Assembly (NCBI GenBank): GCA_947259335.1
Contig: CAMYMQ010000296.1
Coordinates: 1 to 42,017, forward strand
Length of the DNA stretch: 42,017 nucleotides
Direction of reading: 5' to 3'
Origin: an uncultured Alphaproteobacteria bacterium
GTDB taxonomy: Bacteria > Pseudomonadota > Alphaproteobacteria > Bin65
Numbering within the stretch: the first letter of the stretch is position 1; each line of letters starts with the position of its first letter. Below, piece by piece: positions 2,677 through 17,224 of this stretch. Made by a program: the position numbers and the translations under genes. The notes under the pieces were generated by a model that worked only from the letters and a program-made list of their open reading frames with translations, had not been told where the DNA came from and ran no database searches.

Positions 2677-2845
2677 CTCAACGGGTTTTGCAGGGTATTG
2701 GTCCAATCGAATTCGAACAACCTGGCTTTAAGTGCTGGCTGCGTGTTTCGCTGCTGACCTGAGCTCGCGAAAGAGATGATAGTTTAGATTAGAAAAGCGC
2801 GGCGCAATGAACTCACGCGGGAGCGAGCTCTTCTTAGGAGCGGGG

Positions 2846-2871
2846 GGCGGCCGGAGCGATCCGGCCCCTTT
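2846..2871 (+). terminator. Possible terminator hairpin after the CoxL-like gene
   Basis: GGCCGG (2849-2854) pairs with CCGGCC (2861-2866) around loop AGCGAT, extended by two G-C pairs across a bulged C, and is followed by only three T. It lies about 170 nt after the stop codon. The short T-run makes it a weak candidate. Confidence 0.3.
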
Positions 2872-2887
2872 CGTATGTGCCGATGAC

Positions 2888-2922
2888 CCTATAGTTCCAC
2901 TTCTATTTCCTGGAACTATAGG
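2888..2922. repeat. Perfect 12-bp inverted repeat, 11-nt spacer
   Basis: CCTATAGTTCCA (2888-2899) is the exact reverse complement of TGGAACTATAGG (2911-2922), separated by CTTCTATTTCC. No T-tract follows, so a terminator is unlikely. A protein-binding dyad or a recombination-site half-repeat pair are possible readings. Confidence 0.7.
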
Positions 2923-3454
2923 CAGATATGGGCCTTCAAGATAAAATATGACATCTTTTCAATAATATATACACCTTAGAGGTTCAGCTTTGAGTTCGTG
3001 ACTTCCCACCCACCCTCCTGTTCTGAAGAGGGAGGGAGGTGAAGCGATGGAGAGCTGGGAAGGAGTTGGTTGGTGGATGCAAGGTGCTGGGGAGGAATCG
3101 GTAGCAAGCGTACGTGCACCGGGGCTCGAGAGGACCGACTGAATTTCGCCAACGCCACGGTCATGATCGAGTCGCCTGGGTCAGCGCCCGTCGAAGGTTG
3201 ATCCGATCCGCTCCCGCTGTCGTCTTCGACAGGTTGTCGGCGAAATTTTCTAGCAGCGAAAAATTTCCGAGATCAACAATTCGAAGAACTCGATCTTGGG
3301 ATGGGCGGCCGTGTCATGCCGTGATGTTGAATGAAAATAATTTTCAACTACAGAACAACTTTTGGTCCTAAATTACAACTTAACATGACTAGTAATTGAC
3401 TCTTTCTTCCAAAACGTGTCCACTCACCGGCACCAAAGACGGGGAGAGGGGGCC

Positions 3455-4102
3455 ATGACCGACGCTCAGAGGGCGGTGCAGATCGCCATGTCCTACGCAG
3501 AAGATGCGCAGCAGCACATGCGTGCAGACAACTATGCCGAAGTTCTGGAGAACGTCGGGCTGGCAGCTCGGCAGATGCGGGGCGTCCAGGATAACGGTGA
3601 CAAATATGACATTACGGTTGACGGTGACGAGCGCCTGGTCACTGCTGCGCAATTGCGAGCACACATTTTGCAACTAGAGGGAACGGCTCTTGGCTTAATG
3701 GGTAAACACCAAAAGGGTGTCAAGGCTCTGGACCGTGCCATATCGTATGACCCGACCAACGCGAACCTCCACATGATCCAGGCGCAGCTATATCTAGGCT
3801 GCGGTAACAAGAGGGCGGCCAAGAAGGCTTCGCTACGAGCCGCAGAGCTTGACCCGAACAATATCGAAATCGCGAAGGAAGCCGACCGCGTTGGCAATCA
3901 GTCCGGCGCGGCCCTTCGTATCGGGACCTTCACCGGCAGCGTCAAGACCCTGTTGGGTCTCATTGTCATGGGCGGACTTATGCTCGGCATTTTGTTGTTC
4001 GAGCGGCCTCTTTCCGATGAATCTACCGCGGGACTCGGGTTTTGGGTTGTGGCGTTTTGGGGCGGCGCCTGGTGGTACTGGAGGCGCAGGCGTGGACGAT
4101 GA
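3455..4102 (+). CDS. TPR-repeat membrane protein coupled to the downstream DNA-pump ATPase
   Basis: The 215-residue product has a soluble N-terminal part with tetratricopeptide-like helices, clearest at about residues 88-140 (GVKALDRAISYDPTNANLH, then RAAELDPNN), and two C-terminal hydrophobic segments at about 161-181 and 190-209 ending in an Arg-rich tail. This suggests a cytoplasmic TPR scaffold anchored to the inner membrane. I choose ATG 3455 because a GGAGAGGGGG stretch ends two bases upstream, reaching back to 3442; the frame also offers GTG 3416. The stop at 4100-4102 overlaps the GTG start of the ATPase by 11 bp, so the two are probably translationally coupled and may form one complex. 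No named family is recognised beyond TPR. Confidence 0.75.
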   Translation: MTDAQRAVQIAMSYAEDAQQHMRADNYAEVLENVGLAARQMRGVQDNGDKYDITVDGDERLVTAAQLRAHILQLEGTALGLMGKHQKGVKALDRAISYDPTNANLHMIQAQLYLGCGNKRAAKKASLRAAELDPNNIEIAKEADRVGNQSGAALRIGTFTGSVKTLLGLIVMGGLMLGILLFERPLSDESTAGLGFWVVAFWGGAWWYWRRRRGR

Positions 4103-6065
4103 GGTTTGGGATGCCATTCCCGGTATACTCGGCGGCTTGCTCGACCACCTGAAGGTTCGCCAGAACTACCCTCATCGGATCCTGCCCAAGCCCAATAACC
4201 CGAAGAAGCTGCGGTCGAAGATAGGCACGTTCGATCTAGACGACCTGCCGCCCTTCGAGCATTTCCACGAACTCTTCGTTGAGTTCCGCAGCGAGCTGTT
4301 CGAGCTGTGCGGCCTGACCCGGGCGCCCGAGAAGCTCAAGGACGTTCACCGCATCTACGACCTCTACCAGCGGCACGATGACGTTCTCGCCTATATCGGC
4401 ATCCTGTGCGAGCGGTTTGCCGAGGACCTGGCCGAGCGCATCCCGAGTGAAGAGACAGCACAAATTATCCCCACGACCGTGGGCGACGCCATCGACCTGC
4501 CGGCGTATGTGAAGTTCATCTATGGGATGGTGCTCAGCGGCTATATCTGCGGCGACCCAGTGCTGGATGCCTCGATCGAGCCGCTTAAGGAACAGCTCAT
4601 CGAAGGCGCGTTGGTCGGGTCGCAGATCACCCGAGAGGAGGCGGAGAACCGACCCGACAAGCTCAAGCTGCCGGACGACAAGAGCGACCCGATGCTCTGG
4701 ATCCAGGGGACGCCCTTCGAGACGATCGTCAATCACTATCTGGCGTATCCCATTCCCGACTCGATGCGTTTCGAGCATCAGCACATCGTCGCCGGATCGG
4801 GGTGGGGCAAGACCCAGACCATTCAGAACTTCATTGCGTACGACCTTCCTGCCGTCGCCGAGGGCAAGGCGAGCGTCATCGTCATCGACAGCCAGGGCGA
4901 TCTCATCAACAACATTTCGCGCCTCCGTTGGTTCTACAACGGTGCGCTTGAAGACAAGCTCACCCTCATCGAGCCGAAGGACATCGAGTATCCCGTCGTC
5001 CTCAACCTCTTCGACGTGAACCGAGAGCGCGTCGGCGACTATTCTTCCCTCATCCAGGAGCAAATCCTGAACGGCACGATCGAGCTGTACGATTTCGTGT
5101 TCGGGTCGCTCCTGGGCGCCGAGATGACGTCCAAACAAGGCACGCTGTTCCGCTACATCATGCGGCTCATGCTCCAGATTCCCGACGCCAATATCCACAC
5201 CTTCAGGAAGCTCATGGAGCCGGACGGCTATGAGCGCTACAGGCCGTATATCGAGCGGCTCGACGGCACTGCCCGGGCCTTCTTCGAGACCGAGTTCGAC
5301 AGCCGGGAGTTCAAGCAGACCAAGAGCCAGGTGCTGCGTCGGCTGTGGGGCATCCTGGAGAACCGCACTTTCGAGCGGATGTTCTCCCACCCCAATAACA
5401 AGCTCGACCTGTTCTCCGAGATGAACGAGGGTCGGATGATCCTCATCTCGACGTCGAAGGACCTGCTGAAGCAGAACGGCTCCCAGATTTTCGGCCGCTT
5501 CTTCATCGCGATGATCGTGCAGGCGTGTCTGGAGCGTGCCGCGTTGCCGCCGGATAAACGCACACCTTGCTATGTCTACATCGACGAAGCGCAGGACTAT
5601 CTGGACGAAAACGTGGCGCTCATTCTGGAGCAGGCGCGCAAGTACAACGTCGGCGTCATCATGGCCCATCAGTATCTGGGCCAGCTCAGCCCGAAGCTCC
5701 AGGAGGCATTCGCCGCCAATACGTCAATCAAGATGGCCGGCGGCGTGTCGGCGAGGGACGCGCGCGCAATGGCGGCCGAGATGCGCTGTGGCCCCGAATA
5801 TATCGAGAAGCAGCCCCGCGGCTCCTTCGCTATTTCGCTCAGGGGCAAGGTGCTCAGCTACAAGACCAAGCTCGGTCTGATGGAGGGTCTCGATCACATG
5901 ACCGAGGAGCAGTTCGCCGAAATCCGCGACGAAATGCGCGCGAAGTACGCCGTTCATTATTCACAAATCCGTGAGCAAGACGAGCGCATGGACGAACATC
6001 CAGAATCAAATACCGACATAGTAGAACCCGAAGAAGATCCAACTAAGCCTGCATCTTCCTGGTAG
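4092..6065 (+). CDS. VirD4/TraD/HerA-type DNA-translocating ATPase
   Basis: The 657-residue product carries a P-loop ATPase core: Walker A AGSGWGKTQT at about residues 232-241, the strand VIVIDSQGDLI after it, and Walker B YVYIDEAQDYL at about 493-503, followed by MAHQYLGQL, a sensor-like segment common in TraG/VirD4 and HerA/FtsK-like pumps. Known relatives are hexameric ATPases that move DNA through conjugation pores or during processing. The acidic tail (DIVEPEEDPTKP) is unusual but short. The start is GTG 4092, with GGAGG at 4080-4084 seven bases upstream, inside the end of the TPR gene. Downstream after 19 bp is a replication-relaxation family gene, a partner often seen with such ATPases. 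Longer upstream in-frame starts would run antisense-like through the TPR gene and are unlikely. Confidence 0.88.
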   Translation: MDDEVWDAIPGILGGLLDHLKVRQNYPHRILPKPNNPKKLRSKIGTFDLDDLPPFEHFHELFVEFRSELFELCGLTRAPEKLKDVHRIYDLYQRHDDVLAYIGILCERFAEDLAERIPSEETAQIIPTTVGDAIDLPAYVKFIYGMVLSGYICGDPVLDASIEPLKEQLIEGALVGSQITREEAENRPDKLKLPDDKSDPMLWIQGTPFETIVNHYLAYPIPDSMRFEHQHIVAGSGWGKTQTIQNFIAYDLPAVAEGKASVIVIDSQGDLINNISRLRWFYNGALEDKLTLIEPKDIEYPVVLNLFDVNRERVGDYSSLIQEQILNGTIELYDFVFGSLLGAEMTSKQGTLFRYIMRLMLQIPDANIHTFRKLMEPDGYERYRPYIERLDGTARAFFETEFDSREFKQTKSQVLRRLWGILENRTFERMFSHPNNKLDLFSEMNEGRMILISTSKDLLKQNGSQIFGRFFIAMIVQACLERAALPPDKRTPCYVYIDEAQDYLDENVALILEQARKYNVGVIMAHQYLGQLSPKLQEAFAANTSIKMAGGVSARDARAMAAEMRCGPEYIEKQPRGSFAISLRGKVLSYKTKLGLMEGLDHMTEEQFAEIRDEMRAKYAVHYSQIREQDERMDEHPESNTDIVEPEEDPTKPASSW

Positions 6066-6084
6066 GCGCCGCTAAACTGCACGC

Positions 6085-7050
6085 ATGGAATATGGCGTGC
6101 ACAAACGGCGACCGAAGAAGACGCGCGACCCACGGGGGTTGCCCTTTCCGCGGATTACGGAACGGGATTTACTCGTCTTCGCGCTCCTGCAGGAATACCG
6201 GTTCTTGCGAACCAACTTCCTGCACAAGTTGGTCGAGGTCAGGACCGGTGTGGCGCACAATTACGTCGCCTTCCGCGCGCGCCTAGCACTGCTAAGGCAT
6301 CACGCCTACCTGAAGCTGCCGCGCCAGCAGTTCCAATACGACAACTTCCTCTACACCAACGACATCTACGAGCTGGAGCCGAAAGGAGCGGCCGAGCTCC
6401 GGAAAGCCGGGCTCTATGATCACGAAATCGGCGAGGTTCGGCACGGCGAAGGGCAGCACGGTATCCGGTCGCTCGCGCACGCGCTTCAGATCTGCGACAT
6501 CATCGCGGACCTGGAGATCGGCGCCGCGCAGCACGGCCATGTCCGGTTCATGCCGCCGCACGAGGTCTATCGGAAGATGAACCGGCGGCTGTCGATGAAA
6601 GCGACCGCCCGGCACAACGAGCAGAGCAAGACGCTCGAGGTCACGCCGGATGCGGTCGCTGGACTGGAGTACACGAGCAACGGCACGAAGTCGTACCGGG
6701 CGCTGCTGATCGAGGCGCACCAGAACACTGAGCCGTACTTTCGCGCGACGCTCGACCAGAAGAGCCATCTCCGGGAGCTCCTCGCCTATAAGGATATCGC
6801 CGATCGCGGCACCTACAAGCGGGCGGGACTTCCCAACATGCTTGTGCTCTTCGTCACCGTCTCGAAGCGGGTCCAGGAGGGGCTCATGGCAGCGAGCACG
6901 GACGTCACCAACGGTAAGGGCCTGCCGACGATCCTTTACAAGCACATGCCCAAGCTCGGTACAATCCCGCCGCCGAAGCCGGCTGGCGATCTTCTCAACA
7001 CGCCCTGGGATCGGGTTGGCTACGCGCCGATCGACCTCAGGGCAGCGTAG
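6085..7050 (+). CDS. Replication-relaxation family protein
   Basis: The 321-residue product starts with a basic stretch (HKRRPKKTR), then ITERDLLVFALLQEYRFLRTN, which has the winged-helix signature of the Replic_Relax family (PF13814), whose members were described around mobilisable plasmids. The middle contains RSLAHALQICDI and a segment YRALLIEAHQNTEPYF, resembling the acidic strand region of a degenerate nuclease-like fold. The start ATG 6085 has no strong RBS; it follows the ATPase stop by 19 bp. Together with the preceding two genes it forms a TPR-ATPase-DNA-binding module, probably for DNA handling of the mobile element. Biochemical function is not established for the family. Confidence 0.75.
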   Translation: MEYGVHKRRPKKTRDPRGLPFPRITERDLLVFALLQEYRFLRTNFLHKLVEVRTGVAHNYVAFRARLALLRHHAYLKLPRQQFQYDNFLYTNDIYELEPKGAAELRKAGLYDHEIGEVRHGEGQHGIRSLAHALQICDIIADLEIGAAQHGHVRFMPPHEVYRKMNRRLSMKATARHNEQSKTLEVTPDAVAGLEYTSNGTKSYRALLIEAHQNTEPYFRATLDQKSHLRELLAYKDIADRGTYKRAGLPNMLVLFVTVSKRVQEGLMAASTDVTNGKGLPTILYKHMPKLGTIPPPKPAGDLLNTPWDRVGYAPIDLRAA

Positions 7051-7101
7051 CCGAACGGGTGAAGCGACCTCTCGCCCGCTACATTGCGCGCGATGGAATA
7101 G

Positions 7102-7389
7102 CTACGCTTCTGTCGCCGGCCGCTCGACAATGACGCGACCGCGCCCCCGGCGCAGCAGATAACCGCCGCGCGGAATCGACAGCTTGTTCTTCTCGATCAG
7201 CGGCTGCAGCGCTTCCTGGATGCGATCGGCGTTCTTGTCGGTGCCATTCGCTGCAGAAGTCTTCTTCGAAGCGAGCCATTTTGCAAACGCTTCCTCGGCA
7301 ATGTCGTCGCCGATGGATTTGCGAAGAGCGTTAAGCTTCCGCAACTCGCCCTTGGTCAGTTCCTTGGCGTCGGGAAGTTTCTTGGCCAT
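7102..7389 (-). CDS. Small basic protein of unknown function
   Basis: The 95-residue product starts at an ATG with AGGAG seven bases upstream on the minus strand, which supports it as a real gene. It is Lys/Arg-rich with a helical N-terminal half (KELTKGELRKLNALRKSIGDD cut at about residues 9-29) and a basic C-terminal segment GGYLLRRGRGRVIVERP that could form a DNA-binding beta element. No family is recognised. It lies tail-to-tail with the replication-relaxation gene and upstream of, and on the same strand as, the second VirD4-like ATPase, with 149 bp between them. A nucleic-acid-binding accessory role is inference only. Confidence 0.65.
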   Translation of the reverse strand: MAKKLPDAKELTKGELRKLNALRKSIGDDIAEEAFAKWLASKKTSAANGTDKNADRIQEALQPLIEKNKLSIPRGGYLLRRGRGRVIVERPATEA

Positions 7390-7538
7390 TCGATAGACTC
7401 CTAATCTGCCCCCAAAGTCAGGCGAGCATATAGACTGTCATGCTCGTTAGGAAAGCGTTTCTCCTCAAATACCTCGGGCATTTGATGGGTCAGGATCCCG
7501 CAATGCCGAGATCTAAGGTGCGCAACAATACTCGTTCT

Positions 7539-8714
7539 CTACAGCGGACTTAAGGTTGTCGCGCTGAAGGGCGCCGACGGAGATCCGTCGATCATCAGCT
7601 TGATGTAGATGTCGTGGTTCGGCAGGTTCAGCAGATCGACGCGGTCGAACACCGGCTCGAATTCGCGCGCGATCAAGCCGGCGTCGTGCGCTCCCAAGCG
7701 GAACGAGATCAACGTCCCAGCATTGCCGAGAACGGCATGCCCAATGTCCGGGTCGAGTTGGTGCAGATACTGATGCGCCAGAATTGTACCCACGCCGAAC
7801 TTGCGAAGCTCGGAAAGCATCTCGGCCAGGGCCAGCGTCGTGAAGTTTTGGAACTCGTCGACATAGACGTAGAAGGGCCGCCGCCCGGTTTCCTCGATAT
7901 TGGCGCGGCTGAACGCCGCCAGACCCAGCGACGTGACCAGCAGGCCGCCGAACAGCGCCGAGCTGTCGGCGCCGATCTTTCCCTTGGAGAGGTTGACCAG
8001 CAGGACTTGGCCCTGGTCCAGGACCGTGCGCAGGCGGAGCTGGCCGTCACTGCGCGTCAGGATGTGGCGCAGGGTAGGGTCGGCGAGGAAGGCGCCGGCC
8101 TTGTTCTGGATCGGGGCGATGCCGTCGGCTTGGTAGCGGAAGGAGTATTTGGGAAATTCCGACTTCCAGAAGGTCCGCACCTGCTCGTTCTCGACGTGAT
8201 CGAGGGCCTGCTCCCGGAAGTCCTTGTCGGTCAGCATCAGCAGGATGTCGGGCATGGTCGCCGAGGGCTGGTCGAGCAGCGCGAGCAAAGCATTGCGCAG
8301 AATGTGCTCCATCCGTGCGCCCCAGGCGTCGTCCCACATCTTCTTGAACACGTCGAGGAGACCCGAGGCCACCAGCGGCCGGAGTCCGGGGCTGACGCGG
8401 GCGAGCGGGTTGTAGCCGTAGGGCTGTTTCCGGTCGGGGAGGTCGAGATAGACGGTGTCGGCCGTCCGGTGCGGCGGGATGGTCGCCGCGACCCGTTCCA
8501 CGAAATCCCCGTGCGGGTCGATCAGGGCACAGCCGCGGCCCTCTTCGATGTCCTGGCGGATCAAGGTTTCCAGGAGCGTCGTCTTGCCGGTCCCGGTCTT
8601 GCCGATCACGTACATGTGCGAGAGCCGGTCGCGCTGCTTGATGCCGAAGGTCCGATCGGGCTTCCGGTGGTTGGTGCGCGCGAAATACGAAACTTGGTCC
8701 TGTGAGTTCTCCAT
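7539..8714 (-). CDS. VirD4/TraG-like conjugative-transfer ATPase
   Basis: The 391-residue product has Walker A GKTGTGKTTL at about residues 38-47, LIDPHGDFVERV shortly after, and Walker B FYVYVDEFQNF at about 279-289, followed by ILAHQYLHQL and the TraM-recognition-like end RLGAHDAGLIAREFEP. This is the type IV secretion DNA-binding ATPase fold, shorter than classic VirD4 (about 600 residues) and without N-terminal membrane helices. I place the start at ATG 8714; an upstream in-frame TTG at 8747 has no better signal. It diverges from the DUF3768 gene. A second, different DNA pump lies at 4092-6065, but neither pore nor relaxase genes are visible, so a mobilisable element that borrows a transfer channel is one reading. 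Confidence 0.85.
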   Translation of the reverse strand: MENSQDQVSYFARTNHRKPDRTFGIKQRDRLSHMYVIGKTGTGKTTLLETLIRQDIEEGRGCALIDPHGDFVERVAATIPPHRTADTVYLDLPDRKQPYGYNPLARVSPGLRPLVASGLLDVFKKMWDDAWGARMEHILRNALLALLDQPSATMPDILLMLTDKDFREQALDHVENEQVRTFWKSEFPKYSFRYQADGIAPIQNKAGAFLADPTLRHILTRSDGQLRLRTVLDQGQVLLVNLSKGKIGADSSALFGGLLVTSLGLAAFSRANIEETGRRPFYVYVDEFQNFTTLALAEMLSELRKFGVGTILAHQYLHQLDPDIGHAVLGNAGTLISFRLGAHDAGLIAREFEPVFDRVDLLNLPNHDIYIKLMIDGSPSAPFSATTLSPL

Positions 8715-8896
8715 GCCCACAGCCTGCCAGCAAGGCGCCGAAATCAAAGTCGTCTAACCGTGCCGCCCCGGCGCAAGGGCGGGCCTTCCGCTTCGCCGAC
8801 CGCGTGCTAGGCTGAGGCCAGCTGATCTTTCCTTGTCCTCGGTGGCGTTCGCCAGCGCCGATCGGCGGCGTTGGCACCGCGTCACGGAGGACAATC

Positions 8897-9241
8897 ATGA
8901 ACACCACTGTATCGAGCGAGCGATCACAGAAGATCGCCGCGCTCAACGACGATTTCCGCATGACGTTCGTCGGCGGCCTCGTCCTGGTCACGGCCGGCGT
9001 GCAGATGCTCGGACGCGACAGCGTTTCCGAAGCGCTCGCTGCCGTCCGCGCCTTCGACCGCTTCGGCGAGGACAACGATCCCTATGGCGAGCACGACTTC
9101 GGCTCGTTCACCCTCGAGGGCCTGACGCTGTTCTGGAAGATCGACTACTACGATCTCTTTCTCGAGGGCGGCGCGTCCGATCCCTGCGACCCGCACGCGA
9201 CGCGCCGGGTACTCACGGTGATGCTCGCCGACGAATACTGA
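8897..9241 (+). CDS. DUF3768 domain protein
   Basis: The 114-residue product matches DUF3768 along its length: ALNDDFRMTF near the start, VRAFDRFGEDNDPYGEHDF in the middle, LFWKIDYYD and the C-terminal RRVLTVMLADEY. The family is common on alphaproteobacterial plasmids and integrative elements, beside ParB-like and antirestriction genes; its function is unknown. ATG 8897 has GGAGG a few bases upstream (8886-8890). A textbook terminator follows at 9258-9285. The leader upstream (about 8820-8896) is GC-rich, self-complementary and shares the 11-mer CTGATCTTTCC (8822-8832) with the parB leader, hinting at a shared RNA element or regulator. Confidence 0.88.
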   Translation: MNTTVSSERSQKIAALNDDFRMTFVGGLVLVTAGVQMLGRDSVSEALAAVRAFDRFGEDNDPYGEHDFGSFTLEGLTLFWKIDYYDLFLEGGASDPCDPHATRRVLTVMLADEY

Positions 9242-9257
9242 TCCGAAAGGGTCGACT

Positions 9258-9285
9258 GCCCCGCTGACATGCGGGGCTTTTCTTT
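9258..9285 (+). terminator. Rho-independent terminator of the DUF3768 gene
   Basis: GCCCCGC (9258-9264) pairs with GCGGGGC (9271-9277) around loop TGACAT and is followed by TTTTCTTT. It begins 16 nt after the stop codon. Confidence 0.9.
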
Positions 9286-9299
9286 ATCCAAGACCTGGC

Positions 9300-9445
9300 T
9301 TCGTGCCGCCTCGGCACGAACGCGCGTCTACAGTCCGGTCCGTCTCCGCGGGAGCATGTGGGAAGCATCTGATCTTTCCGGATGTGCCTTCCCATCAATC
9401 GGGGACCGCGTGTCGAGCCGCCTGTGCGGCTCGCGGGCGGCCCCT
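9300..9445 (+). ncRNA. Structured 5' leader of parB (possible radC-type RNA motif)
   Basis: Three nested or adjacent stems lie between the DUF3768 terminator and the parB start. Hairpin 1 is TTCGTGCC (9300-9307) with GGCACGAA (9313-9320). Stem 2 is GGGAAGCATC (9360-9369) with GATG-TGC-CTTCCC (9381-9393), containing a 3-nt bulge. Stem 3 is GAGCCGC (9415-9421) with GCGGCTC (9426-9432), enclosed by GGGG (9401-9404) with CCCC (9441-9444). The leader stops 22 nt before the start codon. From memory, the radC RNA motif occurs in front of DNA-binding, integrase and antirestriction genes in Proteobacteria; assignment to it is a guess, the structure is seen directly. Confidence 0.6.
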
Positions 9446-9467
9446 TGTTCCCAAAAGGAGACTGGAG

Positions 9468-11306
9468 ATGAGCGCAAGGCTCAAGACGATCCCGCTGTCG
9501 AAGCTGCAGCGGGCCCAAGCCAACGTGCGCAAGACGGGGCGGGACGCCGACGTCAAGGCACTCGCCGCAAGCATCGAGGCCCATGGCCTGTTGCAGAACC
9601 TCACGGTCCGGCCGGTCGCCACCAATGGCAAGTCGGACGATCGCTACGAGGTGATCGCCGGCGGCCGGCGCCTGGCGGCGCTGCGCAAGCTCGCCAAGAG
9701 CAAGCGCATCGCCAAGGACTTTCCCGTACCATGTTCGGTCCTCGCCGACAGCGAGCGGCCGGAAGAGCTGTCGTTGGCCGAGAATGTCGAGCGGCTGCCG
9801 TTGCACGCGGCGGACCAGTTCGATGCCTTCTACCGTCTCCACCACGAGGGGCTGGCGGCGGGTGAGATCGCTGCGCGGTTCGGCATCGCCGAACGTCTGG
9901 TCCTCCAGCGGCTCAAGCTTGCCGCGGTGAGCCCGAAGCTGGTCGACGTCTACCGCAACGACGGCATGACGCTCGAGCAGCTGATGGCTTTCACCGTCTC
10001 GGGGGATCCCGAGGCGCAGGAACGGGCCTGGTTCGAGAACCCGTACGGGCATGCGAGCCCGGCCGCGATCCGGCGGGCGCTGACCGCCGCCATGGTCGAG
10101 TTCCATGACCGGCGGGTACGCTTCGTCGGCGTCGCGGCCTACGAGGCCGCCGGCGGCGAGGTCGTCCGCGACCTGTTCAGCGAGGACGGCGACGGCTATC
10201 TGGCCGACAGCACGCTCCTCGACCGGCTGGTCTCGGAGAAGCTGACCAAGGAGGCCAAGGCGATCCTTGCCGAAGGCTGGTCCTGGATCGAGACGCTCCC
10301 GGACGTGGACTACGGCATGCTGGCCCGTTACGGGCGGGTATCGCCGACGGACGGGCTGAGCGATCAGGAGAAGTCGCGGCTGTCCGAGCTGTGCGACCGC
10401 TATGACGGTCTTGTCGAAACCCTCGACGAGGATCCGTCAACGGAGCACAGCGCCACGCTGGACGCGCTCGAGACGGAGATCGAAGCGCTCTCCAAGAAGC
10501 GCGAGCAATGGTCCGACGCCGACAAGGCGACGGCCGGCGCGATCGTCTCGGTCGGCCACGACGGCGGGCTCCACGTGGTCCGCGGGCTGGTCAAGCCCGA
10601 GGCCCGGAACAGCGAAGCGAACGGAGGCGAGCGCGAGAAGTCGGCAAACGGCTCGGCGCGTCCGAAGGACGGCATCTCCGATGCGTTGCGAGAGAACCTC
10701 TCGGCGCACCGGACCGCTGCTCTGAGAGCGGAGCTCGTCGACCGGCCCGAGGCCGCCTTCTCGGTGCTGCTCTACACGCTCGTCGTGCAGCTGTTCTTCG
10801 GCGGAGAGGAGACCTGTCTCAAGGTCACGCTCAACCCGACGGACATCTCGACCTACGAGGGCGTCGGGGACAGCCGCGCGGTGCAGGTCCTGGCTGAGCG
10901 CCAGCGCGCTTGGACCGAACGGCTTCCCGTCAAGGAAGGGCTGTGGCACTGGCTCCTGCGCCTCGAAGACGAGGACGAGTCGAGCCTGCTCGCGGTCTGC
11001 GTCGCGATGGTGCTCGACGCCGTCCGGCGCAAGCATGACCGGGAGGACGCGGCGCGGTTCGCGGACGCCGACCGGGTCGCCACAGCGCTGGGGCTGGATA
11101 TGAGCCAATGGTGGCAGCCGACGCGGGATGGCTACTTCGACCACGTTTCGAAGGAGCAGATACTGGCGGCCGTCGCCGAGGCCAAGTCCAGCAACGCGGC
11201 CGAGAACATCGCCAAGCTGAAGAAGCCGGCGATGGCGGCGAAGGCCGAAGCGCTGGTCAACGCGACGGGCTGGTTGCCCGCGCAATTCCGGGCAGGCCAA
11301 CCGTAG
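9468..11306 (+). CDS. ParB/RepB/Spo0J-family protein (large accessory type)
   Basis: The 612-residue product has the ParB N-terminal nuclease-like domain: KLQRAQANVRK near residue 10, GLLQNLTVRPV, VIAGGRRLAALRKLAKSK (about 61-78, with the CTP-binding GGRR-type box) and LSLAENVERLPLHA (about 101-114). A helix-turn-helix follows at about 128-155 (GEIAARFGIAERLVLQRLKL). The remaining 450 residues are the long C-terminal region typical of plasmid and island ParB-like proteins of alphaproteobacteria, of unknown role. ATG 9468 has AAAGGAG about ten bases upstream. No parA is in view, so it may act as a DNA-binding regulator rather than in partition. It is preceded by a structured leader and followed by a terminator. 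Confidence 0.88.
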   Translation: MSARLKTIPLSKLQRAQANVRKTGRDADVKALAASIEAHGLLQNLTVRPVATNGKSDDRYEVIAGGRRLAALRKLAKSKRIAKDFPVPCSVLADSERPEELSLAENVERLPLHAADQFDAFYRLHHEGLAAGEIAARFGIAERLVLQRLKLAAVSPKLVDVYRNDGMTLEQLMAFTVSGDPEAQERAWFENPYGHASPAAIRRALTAAMVEFHDRRVRFVGVAAYEAAGGEVVRDLFSEDGDGYLADSTLLDRLVSEKLTKEAKAILAEGWSWIETLPDVDYGMLARYGRVSPTDGLSDQEKSRLSELCDRYDGLVETLDEDPSTEHSATLDALETEIEALSKKREQWSDADKATAGAIVSVGHDGGLHVVRGLVKPEARNSEANGGEREKSANGSARPKDGISDALRENLSAHRTAALRAELVDRPEAAFSVLLYTLVVQLFFGGEETCLKVTLNPTDISTYEGVGDSRAVQVLAERQRAWTERLPVKEGLWHWLLRLEDEDESSLLAVCVAMVLDAVRRKHDREDAARFADADRVATALGLDMSQWWQPTRDGYFDHVSKEQILAAVAEAKSSNAAENIAKLKKPAMAAKAEALVNATGWLPAQFRAGQP

Positions 11307-11335
11307 ACGGTAAGCCGCTTATCCCAAGTTCCTCC

Positions 11336-11364
11336 AAGGGTCGCTTTATGCGACCCTTCCCTTT
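11336..11364 (+). terminator. Terminator of parB
   Basis: AAGGGTCGC (11336-11344) pairs with GCGACCCTT (11350-11358) around TTTAT, followed by CCCTTT. It starts 30 nt after the parB stop codon. The T-run is short but the stem is perfect. Confidence 0.75.
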
Positions 11365-11553
11365 ATTGCCACTGCATCACAGCCAGTCGAATTAGCCGAT
11401 TCAGATTAGATGTCTTACCCACCGTCTGGAGGCATGGCGCGAACAGCCCCGACTTTCGTCGGAATGGCAATGGGATAGAGCCGGTAGCCTTTGGTTTGCC
11501 GGAACTTCGACGCCTTCAGCTCAAATTTTCGAGCGTGTGAAGCCCCATAGATA

Positions 11554-11581
11554 TTGACAACATTTTTGGAGACGCTACAAT
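11554..11581 (+). promoter_or_regulatory. Sigma-70-type promoter of the plus-strand small RNA
   Basis: TTGACA (11554-11559) matches the -35 consensus exactly and TACAAT (11576-11581) matches the -10 at five of six positions, with a 16-bp spacer. Expected initiation is near 11587-11589, directly before the conserved RNA stem. No ORF of note follows, so the promoter points to a non-coding transcript. Confidence 0.75.
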
Positions 11582-11586
11582 ATCTA

Positions 11587-11656
11587 GTGTAAAGCCTCCC
11601 CCACCGCATATAGGAGCAATTGCTCTAGCGGTGCTGAAGGGGAGGCTACTTTTTTT
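11587..11656 (+). ncRNA. Small structured RNA, copy 1, convergent with abi (AbiF-associated RNA candidate)
   Basis: A predicted transcript of about 70 nt. Stem 1 is AGCCTCCCC (11593-11601) with GGGGAGGCT (11639-11647), 9 bp. Stem 2 is CACCGC (11602-11607) with GCGGTG (11628-11633), offset by a 3'-side bulge CTGAA (11634-11638). The apical hairpin is GAGC-AATT-GCTC (11614-11625). Seven T follow (11650-11656). It has its own near-consensus promoter. Its 3' end overlaps the abi stop codon (11646-11648), and its T-tract is the complement of the last Lys codons of abi. It is homologous to copy 2 at 12849-12920, with compensatory changes. From memory, Rfam describes an abiF RNA motif beside Abi_2 genes and AbiF is reported as a toxin with an RNA antitoxin; an antitoxin role here is inference. 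Confidence 0.8.
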
Positions 11657-12830
11657 GTCCAAAGCTATTAGCCACGACTAGGTAGGAACGCCTCTTTAGC
11701 ATTCCTACTTCATCGAGTGAGCCTACATGGGAGCTACACCAAAACTCCATTTGCTGCCAATTTTCAGGAAATCCGAAATAATTCATCGGCAACTTGTCAA
11801 ATTCCGCAACAAGTGCCTTCAATCTTTGGTACCATCTTGATTGCTCATTCGAGACCTTTGAAAGTAAAAGGTGAAGAAAGCAACAGTATCCATAGAGACT
11901 ATTTTCGTTGGCTGAGATTTTGACCGCCTGGCCAAGCCTAGCTTCCTTTTCTGTTACGATTCCAGCTATTTCAGTGTACCGATTGGGAAACGTAATATGC
12001 GACCAATTCGGAGGCCAATTTACAATTGGTTCATGATGAGCGCAGTGATTACGTAGATTTCGCAAGCCATACAAATTCCCTTGAAGCACTTTGCATGTGA
12101 CGCCGAACGAATCCGCAATGGGATAGGCGATCTCCCTTCTAAGTTTCGAATAGATGTTTACAAGAGTGCCAAACGATGCGTATTGGAGGATTTCCCAAGG
12201 TGACGCCCGACGAAACGCTTCGTTTGCTTCGGCGGTTAGCACTTTATTTCGTTTTTCTCTTTTAGGGCTAAGAGTCGTGTTATGTTTTTCCGCTAGCGAA
12301 GGCTCAAGCTCTTTTCGAAACTCAATATACCTATTCCGTAGCCTCCAAGATCTTACGTAATCTTTCTTTAGGGAATCAAATATTTGCCCTCTACTATAGA
12401 TAGCCTTCTGAACATTCTCCGGCAAACCCCTCAAGGACACTTCACTAGAAAGTTCTGGAATACGCGCGCCAAAATCATATATATCTTCGTCCTCCAATGT
12501 AAAAGTGCTCGATCCATTTGCCGATTTATAGTCTCCAATTTTCATTACTATTTGTGATCTTAGAGAAATTTCTATCTTTTCTAGAGGGCCAAGCAATAGC
12601 AATCTTAACCTTCTATCAAACCAATACAATTCTATTACGTGTGTAATCTTTACTTCATCCGCATACGTATTATCGGGCTTTAGGAAGAAATTGTGGTATG
12701 GCTTTAATCGCCGATGGCCTACATATCTTAGAAAGAACATCGCATCGGCAGGCGAGTCTATAGTCAGGTTTCGCTCTTCGAGTATCTTTATTATTTCTTC
12801 AGTTGATTTATATTCTCGTTCTACAGCCAT
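11646..12830 (-). CDS. Abi family protein (Abi_2; AbiD/AbiF-like HEPN protein)
   Basis: The 394-residue product has the Abi_2 (PF07751) signature YWFDRRLRLLLLGPLEKIE at about residues 69-87, then LRSQIV, and a HEPN RNase motif in RNLRNHCAHHEP: Arg260-Asn-X3-His265. Relatives block phage growth by abortive infection, and HEPN motifs usually cut RNA. GC content is far below that of neighbouring genes, which suggests recent transfer. The ATG at 12830 has a GGGGA stretch about 8 nt upstream. Homologous structured RNAs lie on both sides: copy 2 (12849-12920) directly upstream on the same strand, ending in a terminator 19 nt before the start codon, and copy 1 (11587-11656) convergent with overlapping 3' ends. 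This fits a toxin held by an RNA antitoxin, with expression dependent on read-through. Family call is firm; the antitoxin model is inference. Confidence 0.93.
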   Translation of the reverse strand: MAVEREYKSTEEIIKILEERNLTIDSPADAMFFLRYVGHRRLKPYHNFFLKPDNTYADEVKITHVIELYWFDRRLRLLLLGPLEKIEISLRSQIVMKIGDYKSANGSSTFTLEDEDIYDFGARIPELSSEVSLRGLPENVQKAIYSRGQIFDSLKKDYVRSWRLRNRYIEFRKELEPSLAEKHNTTLSPKREKRNKVLTAEANEAFRRASPWEILQYASFGTLVNIYSKLRREIAYPIADSFGVTCKVLQGNLYGLRNLRNHCAHHEPIVNWPPNWSHITFPNRYTEIAGIVTEKEARLGQAVKISANENSLYGYCCFLHLLLSKVSNEQSRWYQRLKALVAEFDKLPMNYFGFPENWQQMEFWCSSHVGSLDEVGMLKRRSYLVVANSFGQKK

Positions 12831-12848
12831 AGAGCGAGTCCCCGGGCC

Positions 12849-12920
12849 AAAAAAATAGCCGCCCCTGCAGCACCAAAGAGCGGGCTTACGCCCAATATCC
12901 CGGCGGGGGCGGCTTTAACG
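12849..12920 (-). ncRNA. Small structured RNA, copy 2, in the 5' leader of abi (AbiF-associated RNA candidate)
   Basis: Read on the minus strand the element is TTAAAGCC followed by stem 1 AGCCGCCCC (12906-12914) with GGGGCGGCT (12857-12865), a short stem CGCC/GGTG with a G-U pair, a 3'-side bulge CTGCA, an apical hairpin GGGC-GTAA-GCCC with a GNRA-type loop, and a T7 tract (12849-12855). Against copy 1 the fifth pair of stem 1 changes from T-A to G-C and the apical stem changes A-T to G-C, so structure rather than sequence is kept. The T-tract ends 18 bases before the abi start codon. abi mRNA would have to read through this terminator unless it has its own promoter in the remaining gap, where I see none. 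Role as RNA antitoxin is inferred. Confidence 0.78.
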
Positions 12921-12930
12921 GCTAGCGAGA

Positions 12931-12982
12931 TATTCACTGATCGCCCGGAAAGCAAGGAAAATGCGATCACATTTTCGTGATC
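12931..12982 (-). promoter_or_regulatory. Weak promoter and inverted repeat upstream of RNA copy 2 and abi
   Basis: On the minus strand a -10-like TGAATA (12931-12936) lies 17 bp from a poor -35-like TTCCTT (12954-12959). Just upstream is a perfect dyad GATCAC (12965-12970), ATTTTC, GTGATC (12977-12982), placed where an activator or repressor could act. The remaining 12983-13176 holds no gene; two minus-strand ORFs (12821-13072 and 12915-13121) overlap the RNA or the dyad and show no family signal. Confidence 0.4.
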
Positions 12983-13176
12983 TGCGGTGCATTCGCCGCT
13001 CGAGCCATGGGGCAAGGGTGAAAAGGCCCCTACACCAGACGTCTCCGCGGCAAGTCGCGACGAACGAATCAAGAGGCCGAACTTTTGATCGTGAGCAACG
13101 TTTGTTCCGATTTCGTTCCAATGCCAGTGAATCCTAGCTTGGAGGAAGACTGATCGTCTATCAATGCTTCAATTCG

Positions 13177-14154
13177 CTAGCATGTATCACTTGGCAGCTC
13201 GTGGTCAGGTGTGAATCGCTCTCGCGCAGTCGTCAGAAATTCCTTTCGCAAGTGTGGTAGGGCTCCTCTCGCCTCAACTGCGCCTAGTCCGGCTAGGCGC
13301 TCGATTTGGCTGGTTCTATCCATTGAGAAGGTACCAGCAGGAACTTTCGGGCTATAGCGCCACACCCTTGTTCCGGAGTGGGGGTGCCCGGTAAGGATGT
13401 TGGCGACGCCGAGTGACGCGTTACTTTGGCCTTGAAGAAATAAGTTTATTAGATTTCGACCCATTAAGCCCATTCCGACTAGTCCGGGATCTGCGACAAA
13501 GGTCCAGGTATCATCGGTACAGCCCAGGCTAAGCACACGCAGATCGTGGCCGGGCCATCCCAAGATGCCGACCGCTTCAACGACAGCAAGTCCCGTCGGG
13601 TTGTTGGCCCAGATGCCGCCATCAAGGAGATGGCTTCCAGTCGGTATTCGATGTGAGGGAAAGTATACTGGTGCAGCCGCAGTTGCCATTGCAACATCAA
13701 CCGCGTCTACGTGGCAATCCACTTCCAGTCGGGGATGATGAGCAGTCTTGAATACATATACAGATTGCCGATCACGATGATAGGCAGGAATTACGAGGCG
13801 TGTAAAACTGTGGCCTAGCTTCTTTTCTCTAAATACTTCGAAAAGTTCGGCGCGTAGATTGGATGGGTCATATTTCGGCCGGAGCGGCCAGCGTACATAA
13901 CGGAGAATGCGGTCGAGGCAACCTTCCAATTGCCCGAAAACCTGCGGGCCGCGCTCCCTGTAAAATGTCAATATCTCCTGCGCCGATAGACCGATCCCTA
14001 GACCTAGCGCAATAAGCCCTCCAGTCGAAGTCCCGGCGATCAGGTCAAAGTGGTCGACGATCTTCTCGCCAGTGGCCTCCTCTACAACGGCTAGAAATGA
14101 AGCTGGCGCGACTCCTTTGATGCCGCCGCCATCTATGGCAAGAATGCGCTTCAT
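13177..14154 (-). CDS. Patatin-like phospholipase (CapV-like)
   Basis: The 325-residue product is a single patatin domain: the oxyanion-hole motif DGGGIKGV at about residues 8-15, the nucleophile-elbow GTSTGG at about 41-46, and the catalytic-Asp motif DGGIWANNP at about 176-184. Patatins are Ser-Asp lipid acyl hydrolases; compact bacterial forms of this length include CapV, the membrane-degrading effector of CBASS switched on by cyclic dinucleotides. I use ATG 14154, 10 nt after GGAG, rather than the upstream GTG 14172. No CD-NTase, Cap2 or Cap3 gene is visible on either side, so it is an orphan or part of a broken system. It lies behind and on the same strand as the abi gene, which suggests a small defence island. 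Confidence 0.88.
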   Translation of the reverse strand: MKRILAIDGGGIKGVAPASFLAVVEEATGEKIVDHFDLIAGTSTGGLIALGLGIGLSAQEILTFYRERGPQVFGQLEGCLDRILRYVRWPLRPKYDPSNLRAELFEVFREKKLGHSFTRLVIPAYHRDRQSVYVFKTAHHPRLEVDCHVDAVDVAMATAAAPVYFPSHRIPTGSHLLDGGIWANNPTGLAVVEAVGILGWPGHDLRVLSLGCTDDTWTFVADPGLVGMGLMGRNLINLFLQGQSNASLGVANILTGHPHSGTRVWRYSPKVPAGTFSMDRTSQIERLAGLGAVEARGALPHLRKEFLTTARERFTPDHELPSDTC

Positions 14155-14565
14155 TATTCGCCGCTCCGGCACATTTCAAAGTCACCCGAACACATTCTCT
14201 AGGATTGGACCCGTATATCGACAATACCATAGGGCATCCTCGATGTCGCACAGCGACCTACAGGCCTCGCGCCAAGAGCTCATTGGGCAACCACTCAGGC
14301 ACCTGGATGTAACTCATGTGGTCTCGCCAATGCGAGCGAATGGCTTGGTTCTTGCAACTGGTATTTCGCGCCGCTGCGTGTTCTGCGCATCCTTCCACCT
14401 ACTGACAGGAAAGGTGGTGTCCTGCGGGACATGTCGCTGACGCGCTAGAGTGTCACAGAACTCCATCTTTCTCAGCATAGGCCGGCCGCGATGTACTATC
14501 TCCACGCTGTGATTCTCGGATTCAATGGCTCGTACGATCGTTTTCAGCTAAGAGCATGCTATCCA

Positions 14566-14778
14566 TCAATTGAGTGGGGTCGCCTCGGTCGATAGCGATT
14601 GCACAGTCTCGTAGCGCCGGCCGTCCGCAGAGATGTACCGGCATCGGGCGATGCTCAAGACTTCTGGATCGCCGTCTATGATCTCTAGCCAGCACCCTGC
14701 GGTGCGACCTGATTGATTGGTCTATGGTTGTTCAAAGCTAGGTCGGAACGGCACGTCTCCCAACAGTTGTTCGAACAT
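14566..14778 (-). pseudogene. Possible decayed small gene with an in-frame TAG
   Basis: On the minus strand an ATG at 14778 opens a frame reading MFEQLLGDVPFRPSFEQP, then TAG (14722-14724), then 51 further codons including WLEIIDGDPEVLSIARCRY and ADGRRYETVQSLST before TGA at 14566-14568. The downstream part has a protein-like composition (alternating hydrophobic and charged residues), but no family is recognised and the frame could be open by chance. Confidence 0.25.
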
Positions 14779-14804
14779 TGTCGAGTTGCCGTAGAATTGC
14801 TCGT

Positions 14805-14830
14805 GTGCCGCCTCGGCACAAACACACGTC
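14805..14830 (+). repeat. Partial copy of the parB-leader hairpin
   Basis: These 26 bases match 9303-9328 at 23 positions. The 15-nt hairpin GTGCCGCCTCGGCAC is identical, and the following segment differs by three G-to-A changes (CGCGCGTC becomes CACACGTC in its last part). The rest of the leader is not convincingly kept and no gene follows within 500 bp on the plus strand, so it looks like a remnant. Confidence 0.65.
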
Positions 14831-15360
14831 CTTCGATCTGGCCGTCGCCTACGCTACAGTATGTGCGTTAGGGTCCCGAATTCGGCAGCAGGGTCGATGC
14901 GCGCCTCTGGCAATACGAAGCCACGCGCACATGCGTCTTATTCGGATGCGACTCCAAGTAATAATTGATTAACCACGTCGAGGCCTCAGTAGCACTAAGC
15001 GAATTTCGGATCGGTCGATCAATTCATTGAAGTTGGTCGATGAAACCAGATCAATTCGCCAGATCTCGAATTGGGTGGTTCCATATGGCTCTTATTGGGC
15101 TCCCATTCGGTCGGGGCAATTCTCATGTGCCGTACAGACACAAGGGCACGTCTTTCGTAATCGATCCACGCCGCGGTATCCTATCGCTGCGGGCTCGGGG
15201 GGCAATTCATCCGCTCGACGCGCGCCTCCGGCGTGGAGGCTGATGGTTGGAAAGCCAACACAGAGGTGAATGCTGATCTATCGGATCGGCGCCCTCTATC
15301 GCGTGCGGCGGTGCACTGGCAGCGAGTGGTGATCGACCTCCCGGCGCTGCGACCTGTGCC

Positions 15361-17016
15361 TCACCGGATTTTCAAACCATCGTATTGCTCGGCCGCGGTT
15401 CGAACATAGTCCAGTGCCCGCAGCATGCGAGGATTCGCCATGTACATTTCGCTCAAATAGCGTTGTGTCATGCGGGTTTTCGGAGGTTCGAACCTGCCTT
15501 CAAGGGCCCGTACCTCCTCCGCGACACGTCCCAAGGCGTCGAGCCAAATAGACCGCTCAACCACGAGCTTTTTGTCCTGAATCAGGAGGTTCGAACCTAG
15601 TGCAAGGGTTATCTCCTTTCGGACCTCCGAATCGCCCGCGATGAACTGAGCGTGGGCGTTTTGAGCGAACGAGAGGAGGCGGTCGGCTGCGTCCTCATCG
15701 TCCTCAGAGCCACGATCGAGCTGCTCAAGGCGAAGGCGCATATCTTCAACCTCATTTGTCAGTTTCGCTTTCGTGCTCGCGAATTCAGCCTCTGTCAGCT
15801 CGCCGCTGACGCGCAGATCGATCAGGGCGCCGAGCTTCCGCTCGCATCCTTCGATGGTCTTCTGGATATTGCCTGCCACGAGCTCACGGTCGGCCGCGCT
15901 CTGCCCTGAGCGGCTCGCGATATATTCAAGACCCCAGCGCCGGACATGCTCGGGTATCTCGATCATCGCAAGCAGTTGCGCGATCTGCTCTTCGAGCGCC
16001 TCTTCGCGCAGTGACGGCTGCCGGCACGACGGATCCTTGCGCTTGGTGCAGTGGTAGTAGACGTACTCGTGCACATTACCGTTCTGCTGGCGCTTCGTCT
16101 TTCTCTCGGCCGTGATCATCGCTCTGCACTCTCCACAGCGCAACGGGCCGCGATACGGGAACTCATGGTCGCCCCGGCGCGGTTTCGGGCACGCTGATAT
16201 CTGCATCAGCGATTGGATGTGCCGGTACTCGTCCTTCGAGATCATGGGCTTGTGCGCGCCCGTGTACCAGTTGCCACTGCCGACCGGATACTCGAAGCGG
16301 CCGCAATAGAAGGGGCGGGAGAAGATGTTGTAGATGTTGCTGCGGCTCATCTTGTTCCCGAGCGGCGTGCGGAAGCCCCACTCCTCGTTGGCGATGGCGA
16401 GGATCTGCGGCGGCGTGTAGTCGCCGGTGAGCATGAGGTCGAACATCTTGCGGACCAGGTCGAAGCGGTCGGGGTCCGGCACGATGGTCTTGTTGCCGCG
16501 TTCGGCATACCGGTCGTTGAGGTAGCCGAGTGGCGCCGGCGCCGGGTAGATGCCCTGCTCGGCCTTGGTTTTCAGCCCGCGCTTGACGTCGACGCCCTTA
16601 TTGTCGTTCTCGAGCTTCGCCTGGCCGCAGAACAGCCCAAGGAGGAACTTGTCGTTCGGCGTGTTGTAGTAGGTCTGCGACGGGGTTCGGATTTCGAGCA
16701 GCTTGTCGCGGTCCATCAGGTCGATGATCACCCCGGTGTCGATCGCGTTGCGGGAGATCCGGTTGGGGCTCCAGGTCAGCAGCGCGTTGATGTGTCCTCG
16801 CTCTATCGCCCCGACCAGCTCGTCGAAGATCGGGCGCCCCGGCCGTTTGGCCGAGTGCGATTCCTCAAAGGCTTCCTTCACGGAAAGACCGTCGCGTTGG
16901 ACCAACGCGTCGAGTTCTCGCTTCTGCGAGTCGATGGACGCGACCTGGCGATCCTCCTGTTCGGACGATTTCCGCGCGTAGAGACCATATGCGATTGTCG
17001 GTTGGTTGCGGTTCAT
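15361..17016 (-). CDS. Large serine recombinase / integrase
   Basis: The 551-residue product has an N-terminal resolvase catalytic domain (YARKSSEQEDRQ with probable nucleophile Ser17, later LLTWSPNRISRN), a recombinase domain at about 160-280, a zinc ribbon (CGEC at about 291-294, then HC and C in YYHCTKRKDPSC), a coiled-coil-like Glu/Arg-rich region at about 330-445, and a C-terminal tail. Large serine recombinases integrate and excise phages and islands by recombining short attP and attB sites. It is the likely integrase of the surrounding element. A 46-codon ORF lies 67 bp upstream on the same strand. The start ATG 17016 has only a weak RBS. All expected domains are present, so it seems intact. 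Confidence 0.93.
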   Translation of the reverse strand: MNRNQPTIAYGLYARKSSEQEDRQVASIDSQKRELDALVQRDGLSVKEAFEESHSAKRPGRPIFDELVGAIERGHINALLTWSPNRISRNAIDTGVIIDLMDRDKLLEIRTPSQTYYNTPNDKFLLGLFCGQAKLENDNKGVDVKRGLKTKAEQGIYPAPAPLGYLNDRYAERGNKTIVPDPDRFDLVRKMFDLMLTGDYTPPQILAIANEEWGFRTPLGNKMSRSNIYNIFSRPFYCGRFEYPVGSGNWYTGAHKPMISKDEYRHIQSLMQISACPKPRRGDHEFPYRGPLRCGECRAMITAERKTKRQQNGNVHEYVYYHCTKRKDPSCRQPSLREEALEEQIAQLLAMIEIPEHVRRWGLEYIASRSGQSAADRELVAGNIQKTIEGCERKLGALIDLRVSGELTEAEFASTKAKLTNEVEDMRLRLEQLDRGSEDDEDAADRLLSFAQNAHAQFIAGDSEVRKEITLALGSNLLIQDKKLVVERSIWLDALGRVAEEVRALEGRFEPPKTRMTQRYLSEMYMANPRMLRALDYVRTAAEQYDGLKIR

Positions 17017-17083
17017 AGACCGTGGTCGGATTCTACCCGATGGGCCGGCGACTCGCGAATCGACCGCCTTCGCAAGCGAGCCT

Positions 17084-17224
17084 CTACTGTGGGCCGTAGA
17101 CGATCGCTAGGAGCCGCACGAGCTGGCCAGCATACTCGCGCGCTCGCTTCTTGCTGAGCCGCTCGCCGTAGGTTTTTTCCCACAGGTCGATGAAGTCTTC
17201 GACTGCCTCGTCAGTGATTTCCAT
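17084..17224 (-). CDS. Small acidic protein upstream of the serine recombinase
   Basis: The 46-residue product reads MEITDEAVEDFIDLWEKTYG, then ERLSKKRAREYAGQLVRLL, ending IVYGPQ. I recognise the general pattern (acidic residues, FIxLWEKxYGExLS, then KxxAxExAxxLVxLL) as that of small unnamed proteins often encoded next to recombinases and integrases in Proteobacteria. It is predicted to be all-helical. It sits 67 bp upstream of the recombinase on the same strand, so it may be co-expressed. A role as directionality or regulatory factor is only a guess. The codon pattern and GC match those of neighbouring genes. Confidence 0.65.
   Translation of the reverse strand: MEITDEAVEDFIDLWEKTYGERLSKKRAREYAGQLVRLLAIVYGPQ

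Follow-up and report, generated by a model that had tools for sequence, protein, structure and literature searches.

Two abiF-type RNA genes around a divergent AbiF-type gene: a candidate toxin locus with cis- and trans-acting antitoxin RNAs

A single abi gene was found between two copies of one structured RNA in a stretch of 42,017 nucleotides (42 kb; here called the window) from an uncultured alphaproteobacterium (Table 1). The locus probably encodes a divergent AbiF toxin and two abiF-type RNA antitoxins, of which copy 2 would serve as attenuator and antitoxin in cis, and copy 1 would be a trans-only copy. AbiF, a phage-defence protein related to the Cas13 ancestor, has been reported as a toxin that is neutralised by RNA, and its link to Cas13 is likewise published (PMC12373285; PMC12737573); both points had been made in the original prediction. 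AbiF toxins with their RNAs have been proposed as the ancestors of Cas13. The abiF RNA is normally single and lies in front of the AbiF gene, where it restrains the toxin. AbiF with an RNA antitoxin is thus already known, and what is new here is the second, convergent RNA with its own predicted promoter. The interest of the locus lies in this RNA with its separate predicted promoter and in the failure of the Rfam model to detect it.

Table 1. Features of the abi locus and its surroundings (positions in the window)
Feature	Positions	Strand	Evidence
Promoter-like site for copy 1: TTGACA, 16 nt, TACAAT	11554-11581	+	11/12 sigma-70 match
Copy 1, abiF-type structured RNA	11587-11657	+	Fold; best R2 match in window; topology scan
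abi, 394 aa, divergent AbiF/Abi_2 (AbiD-like) HEPN toxin homologue	11646-12830	-	PF07751; PADLOC AbiD; phmmer; Foldseek
HEPN motif R260-N-H-C-A-H265, then H266	12036-12053	-	Invariant residues across AbiF proteins
Copy 2, abiF-type structured RNA upstream of abi	12847-12920	-	Fold; R1 self match; second-best R2 match; spacing
AATATCT, possible -10 region, before copy 2	12926-12932	-	Alignment of upstream flanks of both copies
Patatin-like phospholipase gene, upstream of copy 2	13177-14172	-	PF01734 7.5e-28; PADLOC phospholipase effector 3.5e-92
Large serine recombinase of putative mobile element carrying locus	15361-17016	-	PF00239, PF07508, PF13408

Arrangement and fold of the two RNAs

The original prediction described abi as flanked by the two copies. 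Both copies are present, but copy 1 runs into the gene, with a stem that ends at 11647 inside the stop codon (11646-11648), and the copies differ in their orientation to abi. Copy 2 precedes abi and shares its strand, and copy 1 is downstream and convergent. The T7 tract of copy 1 overlaps the stop codon and encodes, on the opposite strand, the last Abi codons. The stem and T7 of copy 2 form a predicted intrinsic terminator 17 nt before the abi ATG.

The predicted places and fold of the copies were confirmed by their coordinates and by folding. They have a common architecture of a 9-bp basal stem, a 5-nt 3' bulge (CUGAA in copy 1 and CUGCA in copy 2), a 4-bp inner stem, a 4-bp apical hairpin and a T7 tract, and all 17 pairs (9 basal, 4 inner and 4 apical) are formed in both copies, with none broken. 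The folding energy was -33.9 kcal/mol for copy 1 (z -4.7; 0/200 shuffles as good) and -35.2 kcal/mol for copy 2 (z -2.2; 6/200 shuffles as good). A strict topology descriptor (at least 8 bp, a 5-nt 3' bulge, at least 4 bp and T5) was run on both strands of the 42 kb and found exactly two sites, which were copy 1 and copy 2. With the same descriptor, Markov-simulated windows held a mean of 0.13 sites, and two sites were seen in none of 60.

It had also been claimed that the structure is under selection. Between the copies, one basal pair (U-A/G-C) and one apical pair (A-U/G-C) have changed on both sides and a third pair on a single side (A-U/G-U), and the copies differ at 5 of 34 paired positions compared to 20 of 36 unpaired positions (Fisher p 0.0004). 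The covariation count on a MAFFT alignment of only these two sequences was not significant alone and, therefore, the evidence for selection consists of the contrast between stems and loops together with the family data given below. Since the differences are mainly in the loops, both copies seem to have been retained since the duplication.

The promoter-like site of copy 1 was the only one of such strength in 1.9 kb, and its predicted start is at about 11588, just before the RNA. No sigma-70 match of 9/12 or better was found for copy 2. Alignment of the flanks showed AATATCT ahead of each copy, at a distance of 6-11 nt from the first stem, and in copy 2 a weak TTGCTT is located upstream of this motif.

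Relation to the abiF RNA family

The RNAs had been assigned to the abiF motif, and this assignment held for topology, for the position of copy 2 and for the ranking by a broader model, but not for the Rfam model itself. A match to Rfam abiF (RF03085), the first test named in the original prediction, failed outright: no match was found in the window, even at an E-value of 10, or over the whole draft genome, and neither copy reaches the gathering cut-off of 37 bits. RF03085 also scored the true upstream RNAs of five other AbiF loci (L003, L005, L008, L012 and L022) at only 27.7-36.3 bits, below its cut-off. Because true upstream abiF RNAs are underscored in this way, a broader covariance model, R2, was built. 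For this, 80 AbiF loci were collected from genomes, their upstream RNAs were extracted and 33 canonical RNAs were aligned, without the window sequence. This alignment showed double changes at 11/11 pairs and 58 cells compared to 12.7 when shuffled, and the covariation signal was lost when the pairing partner was slid. R2 detects far more abiF RNAs than RF03085.

When R2 was run over the 42 kb with filters off, copy 1 ranked first (21.6 bits, E 0.0015) and copy 2 second (13.8 bits, E 0.26, not significant alone), followed by a plain hairpin with 9.2 bits. A second model, R1, was built from copy 1 and copy 2; when 508 kb of AbiF loci were scanned with it, nine matches with E-values up to 10 were obtained. 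Three of the nine (L062, L109 and L053) were on the correct strand directly before an abi ATG, a position expected for about 1% per match (binomial p 1.3e-4). Two other R1 matches, at a contig end (L015, 27.9 bits) and inside a sulfite-reductase-like frame (L199, 30.7 bits), were set aside as matches that were due to chance or could not be proven. In whole genomes, both models also score plain terminators or chance sites at about 30 bits; a bare R1 or R2 score is, therefore, weak evidence, and position matters. Viral contigs were searched with a DNA pattern for the RNA and plasmids by DNA similarity, and neither search found anything.

In topology the copies agree both with the consensus of Rfam abiF, which has a stem, then a short 5' side and a 5-6-nt 3' bulge, then a second stem and a loop, and with the 33 canonical upstream RNAs. 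They show the wider abiF topology of a basal stem, a 5-6-nt 3' bulge, a second stem and a T tract. Copy 2, and not copy 1, has the position directly upstream of abi on the same strand, and its 17-nt gap to the ATG is within the family range of -5 to 43 (median 12.5; 44 loci). We conclude that copy 2, as judged from sequence and position, is a divergent abiF-type RNA in the normal place and beyond the reach of RF03085. The copies have in common a CTGNA bulge, an extra apical hairpin and AAAGCC/GGCTA flanks. Copy 1 appears to be a paralogue of copy 2, since canonical RNAs do not carry these features as a set.

The two-copy arrangement had been thought unusual, and the survey supported this. R2 identified about 106 loci with a same-strand upstream RNA (77 + 8 + 21; some viral contigs are near-identical), and none of them had a second, downstream copy. 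The flanking arrangement was not found among about 170 other such genes examined. No homologous locus was found that is near enough to show whether the arrangement is conserved; the best relatives were about 30% identical. Only one genome is known to carry the two-copy locus. Because R2 is weak for window-like variants, this survey could have overlooked a very divergent second copy elsewhere. A topology scan at the 3' ends of the 170 genes gave 17 antisense and 19 sense sites, which is background except for one locus.

The exception was L092, from a Bacteroidales MAG. Its gene (2980-3975, +) has only one abiF RNA (3975-4033, -), which is convergent at the 3' end, has a canonical sequence, scores 45.2 bits with R2 and has a T tract that ends at the stop codon. 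This RNA is preceded by TATCTTTG, which we take to resemble the Bacteroidetes -7 element. L092 is an example that a convergent 3' copy can be the sole abiF RNA of a locus. It shares with the window a convergent abiF RNA whose T tract is at the toxin stop codon, and it differs in its canonical RNA sequence and in that no upstream copy was found there. L092 would be a good second test case for a trans-only antitoxin RNA.

Two further variants were observed. A Thiomicrorhabdus locus (L063) has two different abiF RNAs in tandem upstream (2828-2893 and 2926-2979, +), each with its own stem and T tract, and was the only tandem case in the R2 survey. In L197 an extra abiF RNA (2508-2568, +) has no abi gene next to it; another abiF RNA (3496-3557, +) and a degraded abi gene follow about 1 kb further on. 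From L197, orphan antitoxin RNAs may exist.

The Abi protein and its genomic setting

The identification of the gene as a HEPN Abi_2 protein was upheld. Abi matched PF07751 (Abi_2) with an E-value of 2.9e-27 and 96.6 bits, exceeding the curated Pfam cut-off of 25.6, and it matched PADLOC AbiD (1.8e-41) and, with phmmer, PbAbiF of 8vz6 (5.8e-20). An AlphaFold2 model with a mean pLDDT of 77.8 was made from an input alignment in which four plasmid-record rows were left out and replaced by other AbiF-locus rows. Foldseek against the PDB matched this model to 8vz6_A, PbAbiF bound to its ncRNA (E 7.1e-12, TM 0.77 by target), and 8vz6 was the sole match with an E-value below 1. Abi fits the HEPN R-x4-6-H active-site pattern with RNHCAH, in which R260 and H265 are intact, and it has all six residues (R260, N261, C263, A264, H265 and H266) that are invariant across 26-28 AbiF proteins. 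PbAbiF activity is reported to need R210/H215, the counterpart of R260/H265 in Abi (PMC12373285).

Searches within the order and the class, and in viral contigs, phages, plasmids and 84,980 genomes, found no relatives above about 31% identity, and in a tree of 152 AbiF proteins Abi was among the longest branches, without a supported placement. Abi is a very divergent AbiF-type HEPN protein, and its toxicity would be expected from the family.

The locus is probably carried by an integrative mobilizable element, judging from the gene content around it. The putative element, at about 2700-17200, contains genes for TrwB-like proteins, a replication-relaxation-like protein (Replic_Relax), a ParB-like protein and the large serine recombinase, and it adjoins a xanthine-dehydrogenase-type gene. 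The patatin-like phospholipase matches CBASS-type effectors, a type used in defence; no cyclase-sized reading frame is present between its gene and the recombinase at 15361. A mobile element and a neighbouring phospholipase of an effector type make a setting that fits a role as defence or addiction cargo.

Candidate mechanism, alternatives and meaning

We infer toxicity, RNA neutralisation, cis attenuation and trans action from AbiF/RCd22 of Clostridioides difficile and from PbAbiF. In C. difficile, RCd22 acts in cis, where transcription is terminated before the toxin gene and deletion raised abiF 17-fold, and in trans, where it binds the AbiF protein (PMC12373285). This system resembles the window locus in its Abi_2/AbiF HEPN toxin (PMC12373285), in a structured RNA that carries an intrinsic terminator and immediately precedes the toxin gene in line, and in its two abiF motifs per system. 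In contrast, both of its motifs are in tandem in one upstream RNA, whereas here two RNA genes flank the toxin and the second is convergent with its own predicted promoter; the bulge and loop sequences also differ, and RF03085 has no match here. PbAbiF is reported to bind two RNA molecules as a dimer and to be inhibited by nucleotides of a single-stranded RNA bulge (PMC12737573; PMC12373285). PbAbiF/AbiFr (8vz6; Zilberzwige-Tal et al. 2025, via PMC12373285, PMC12737573) is similar in fold, in the active-site R and H and in the single-stranded-bulge RNA, but according to those two accounts it has one RNA gene, compared to two here. PbAbiF has 300 aa compared to the 394 aa of Abi, which has insertions near residues 100-205 and 290-310.

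By analogy with these systems, copy 2 would be transcribed from a promoter before 12920, and most transcripts would end at its own terminator. Rare read-through past this terminator would produce the toxin mRNA, and so copy 2 would limit the toxin in cis; its RNA would also bind and silence the HEPN ribonuclease. Copy 1 would be a duplicate with its own stronger promoter in the opposite direction. It could act only in trans, or on the mRNA 3' end, because no gene lies in line behind it, and it would provide a steady supply of neutralising RNA, independent of the level of the toxin operon. An invader that halts host transcription or degrades the RNAs would free the toxin, and the RNA cutting that follows would abort the infection. 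The expected mode would be like that of the type III systems ToxIN, CptIN and TenpIN, in which a structured RNA binds and neutralises a ribonuclease and a terminator lies between RNA and toxin. Unlike in those systems, the toxin here has a HEPN fold and not the ToxN fold, and no type III-style tandem repeat array was found upstream in 11300-13250, where there is a single unit only.

The alternative that survives best, though unlikely, is that only copy 2 is a working antitoxin and copy 1 is a functionless relic of the duplication or of a second abi unit that has since been lost. Such a history would fit the extra or orphan abiF RNAs seen in L197, with its second RNA and degraded abi, and in the tandem of L063. 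However, copy 1 has retained all its pairs, its T7 and its 11/12 promoter despite the loop divergence, and it outscored copy 2 with R2, an independent model.

Next in rank, and rather doubtful, is the possibility that copy 1 serves mainly as antisense to the 3' end of the abi transcript or as a shared bidirectional terminator. Copy 1 overlaps the coding sequence by only about 12 nt, it has kept a bulge and an inner stem for which neither antisense pairing nor termination has any need, and the published RCd22 targets the protein and generally not mRNAs. The geometry itself would suit this reading: copy 1 converges on abi and extends over the stop codon, the abi transcript would end in the exact complement of copy 1, which is itself a strong hairpin, and L092 repeats the arrangement, down to the T tract ending at the stop codon. 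In type I pairs such as TxpA/RatA, the antitoxin RNA gene also converges on the toxin 3' end. The window locus differs from such pairs in that its RNA has a protein-binding-type fold common to the upstream copy and its toxin is a large HEPN protein.

It is quite improbable that both copies are ordinary intrinsic terminators that are alike by chance, copy 2 serving the patatin gene and copy 1 the ParB-like gene or abi. Both do have GC-rich stems followed by T7, and R2 also matches plain genomic terminators, but the ParB-like gene already has its own terminator at 11336-11358, and a terminator does not require the 5-nt bulge, the inner stem or the shared AAAGCC and CTGNA. The bulge descriptor is, moreover, expected only 0.13 times per window, and copy 2 is at the canonical place of an abiF RNA. 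A further reading takes the copies for the terminal inverted repeats that bound a small mobile element, with abi as its cargo. It is suggested by the inverted orientation around one gene and by AATATCT just outside each copy, but it is highly improbable and was rejected, since no target-site duplication or longer end similarity was detected, each copy is itself a hairpin that shows compensatory changes and has a T tract, and no further copy was found in the 4.15 Mb draft genome.

The preferred reading, a toxin with one cis-acting and one trans-only antitoxin RNA, has a bolder and, in our view, improbable form. The two RNAs would be separately controlled antitoxins of different sequence, one for each dimer site or condition, and copy 1 would also pair with the mRNA 3' end. 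If true, the toxin would be under type III-like and type I-like control through one RNA family, and the locus would represent an intermediate between systems with one antitoxin RNA and Cas13 with its multi-RNA guide supply.

As RF03085 misses divergent members, many AbiF genes probably have antitoxin RNAs that have escaped annotation. Two diverged copies beside one toxin provide a natural test of whether the RNAs are interchangeable, whether one of each is bound per dimer and what a trans-only RNA is worth. The locus bears on the question of how one antitoxin RNA became the many guide RNAs of Cas13.
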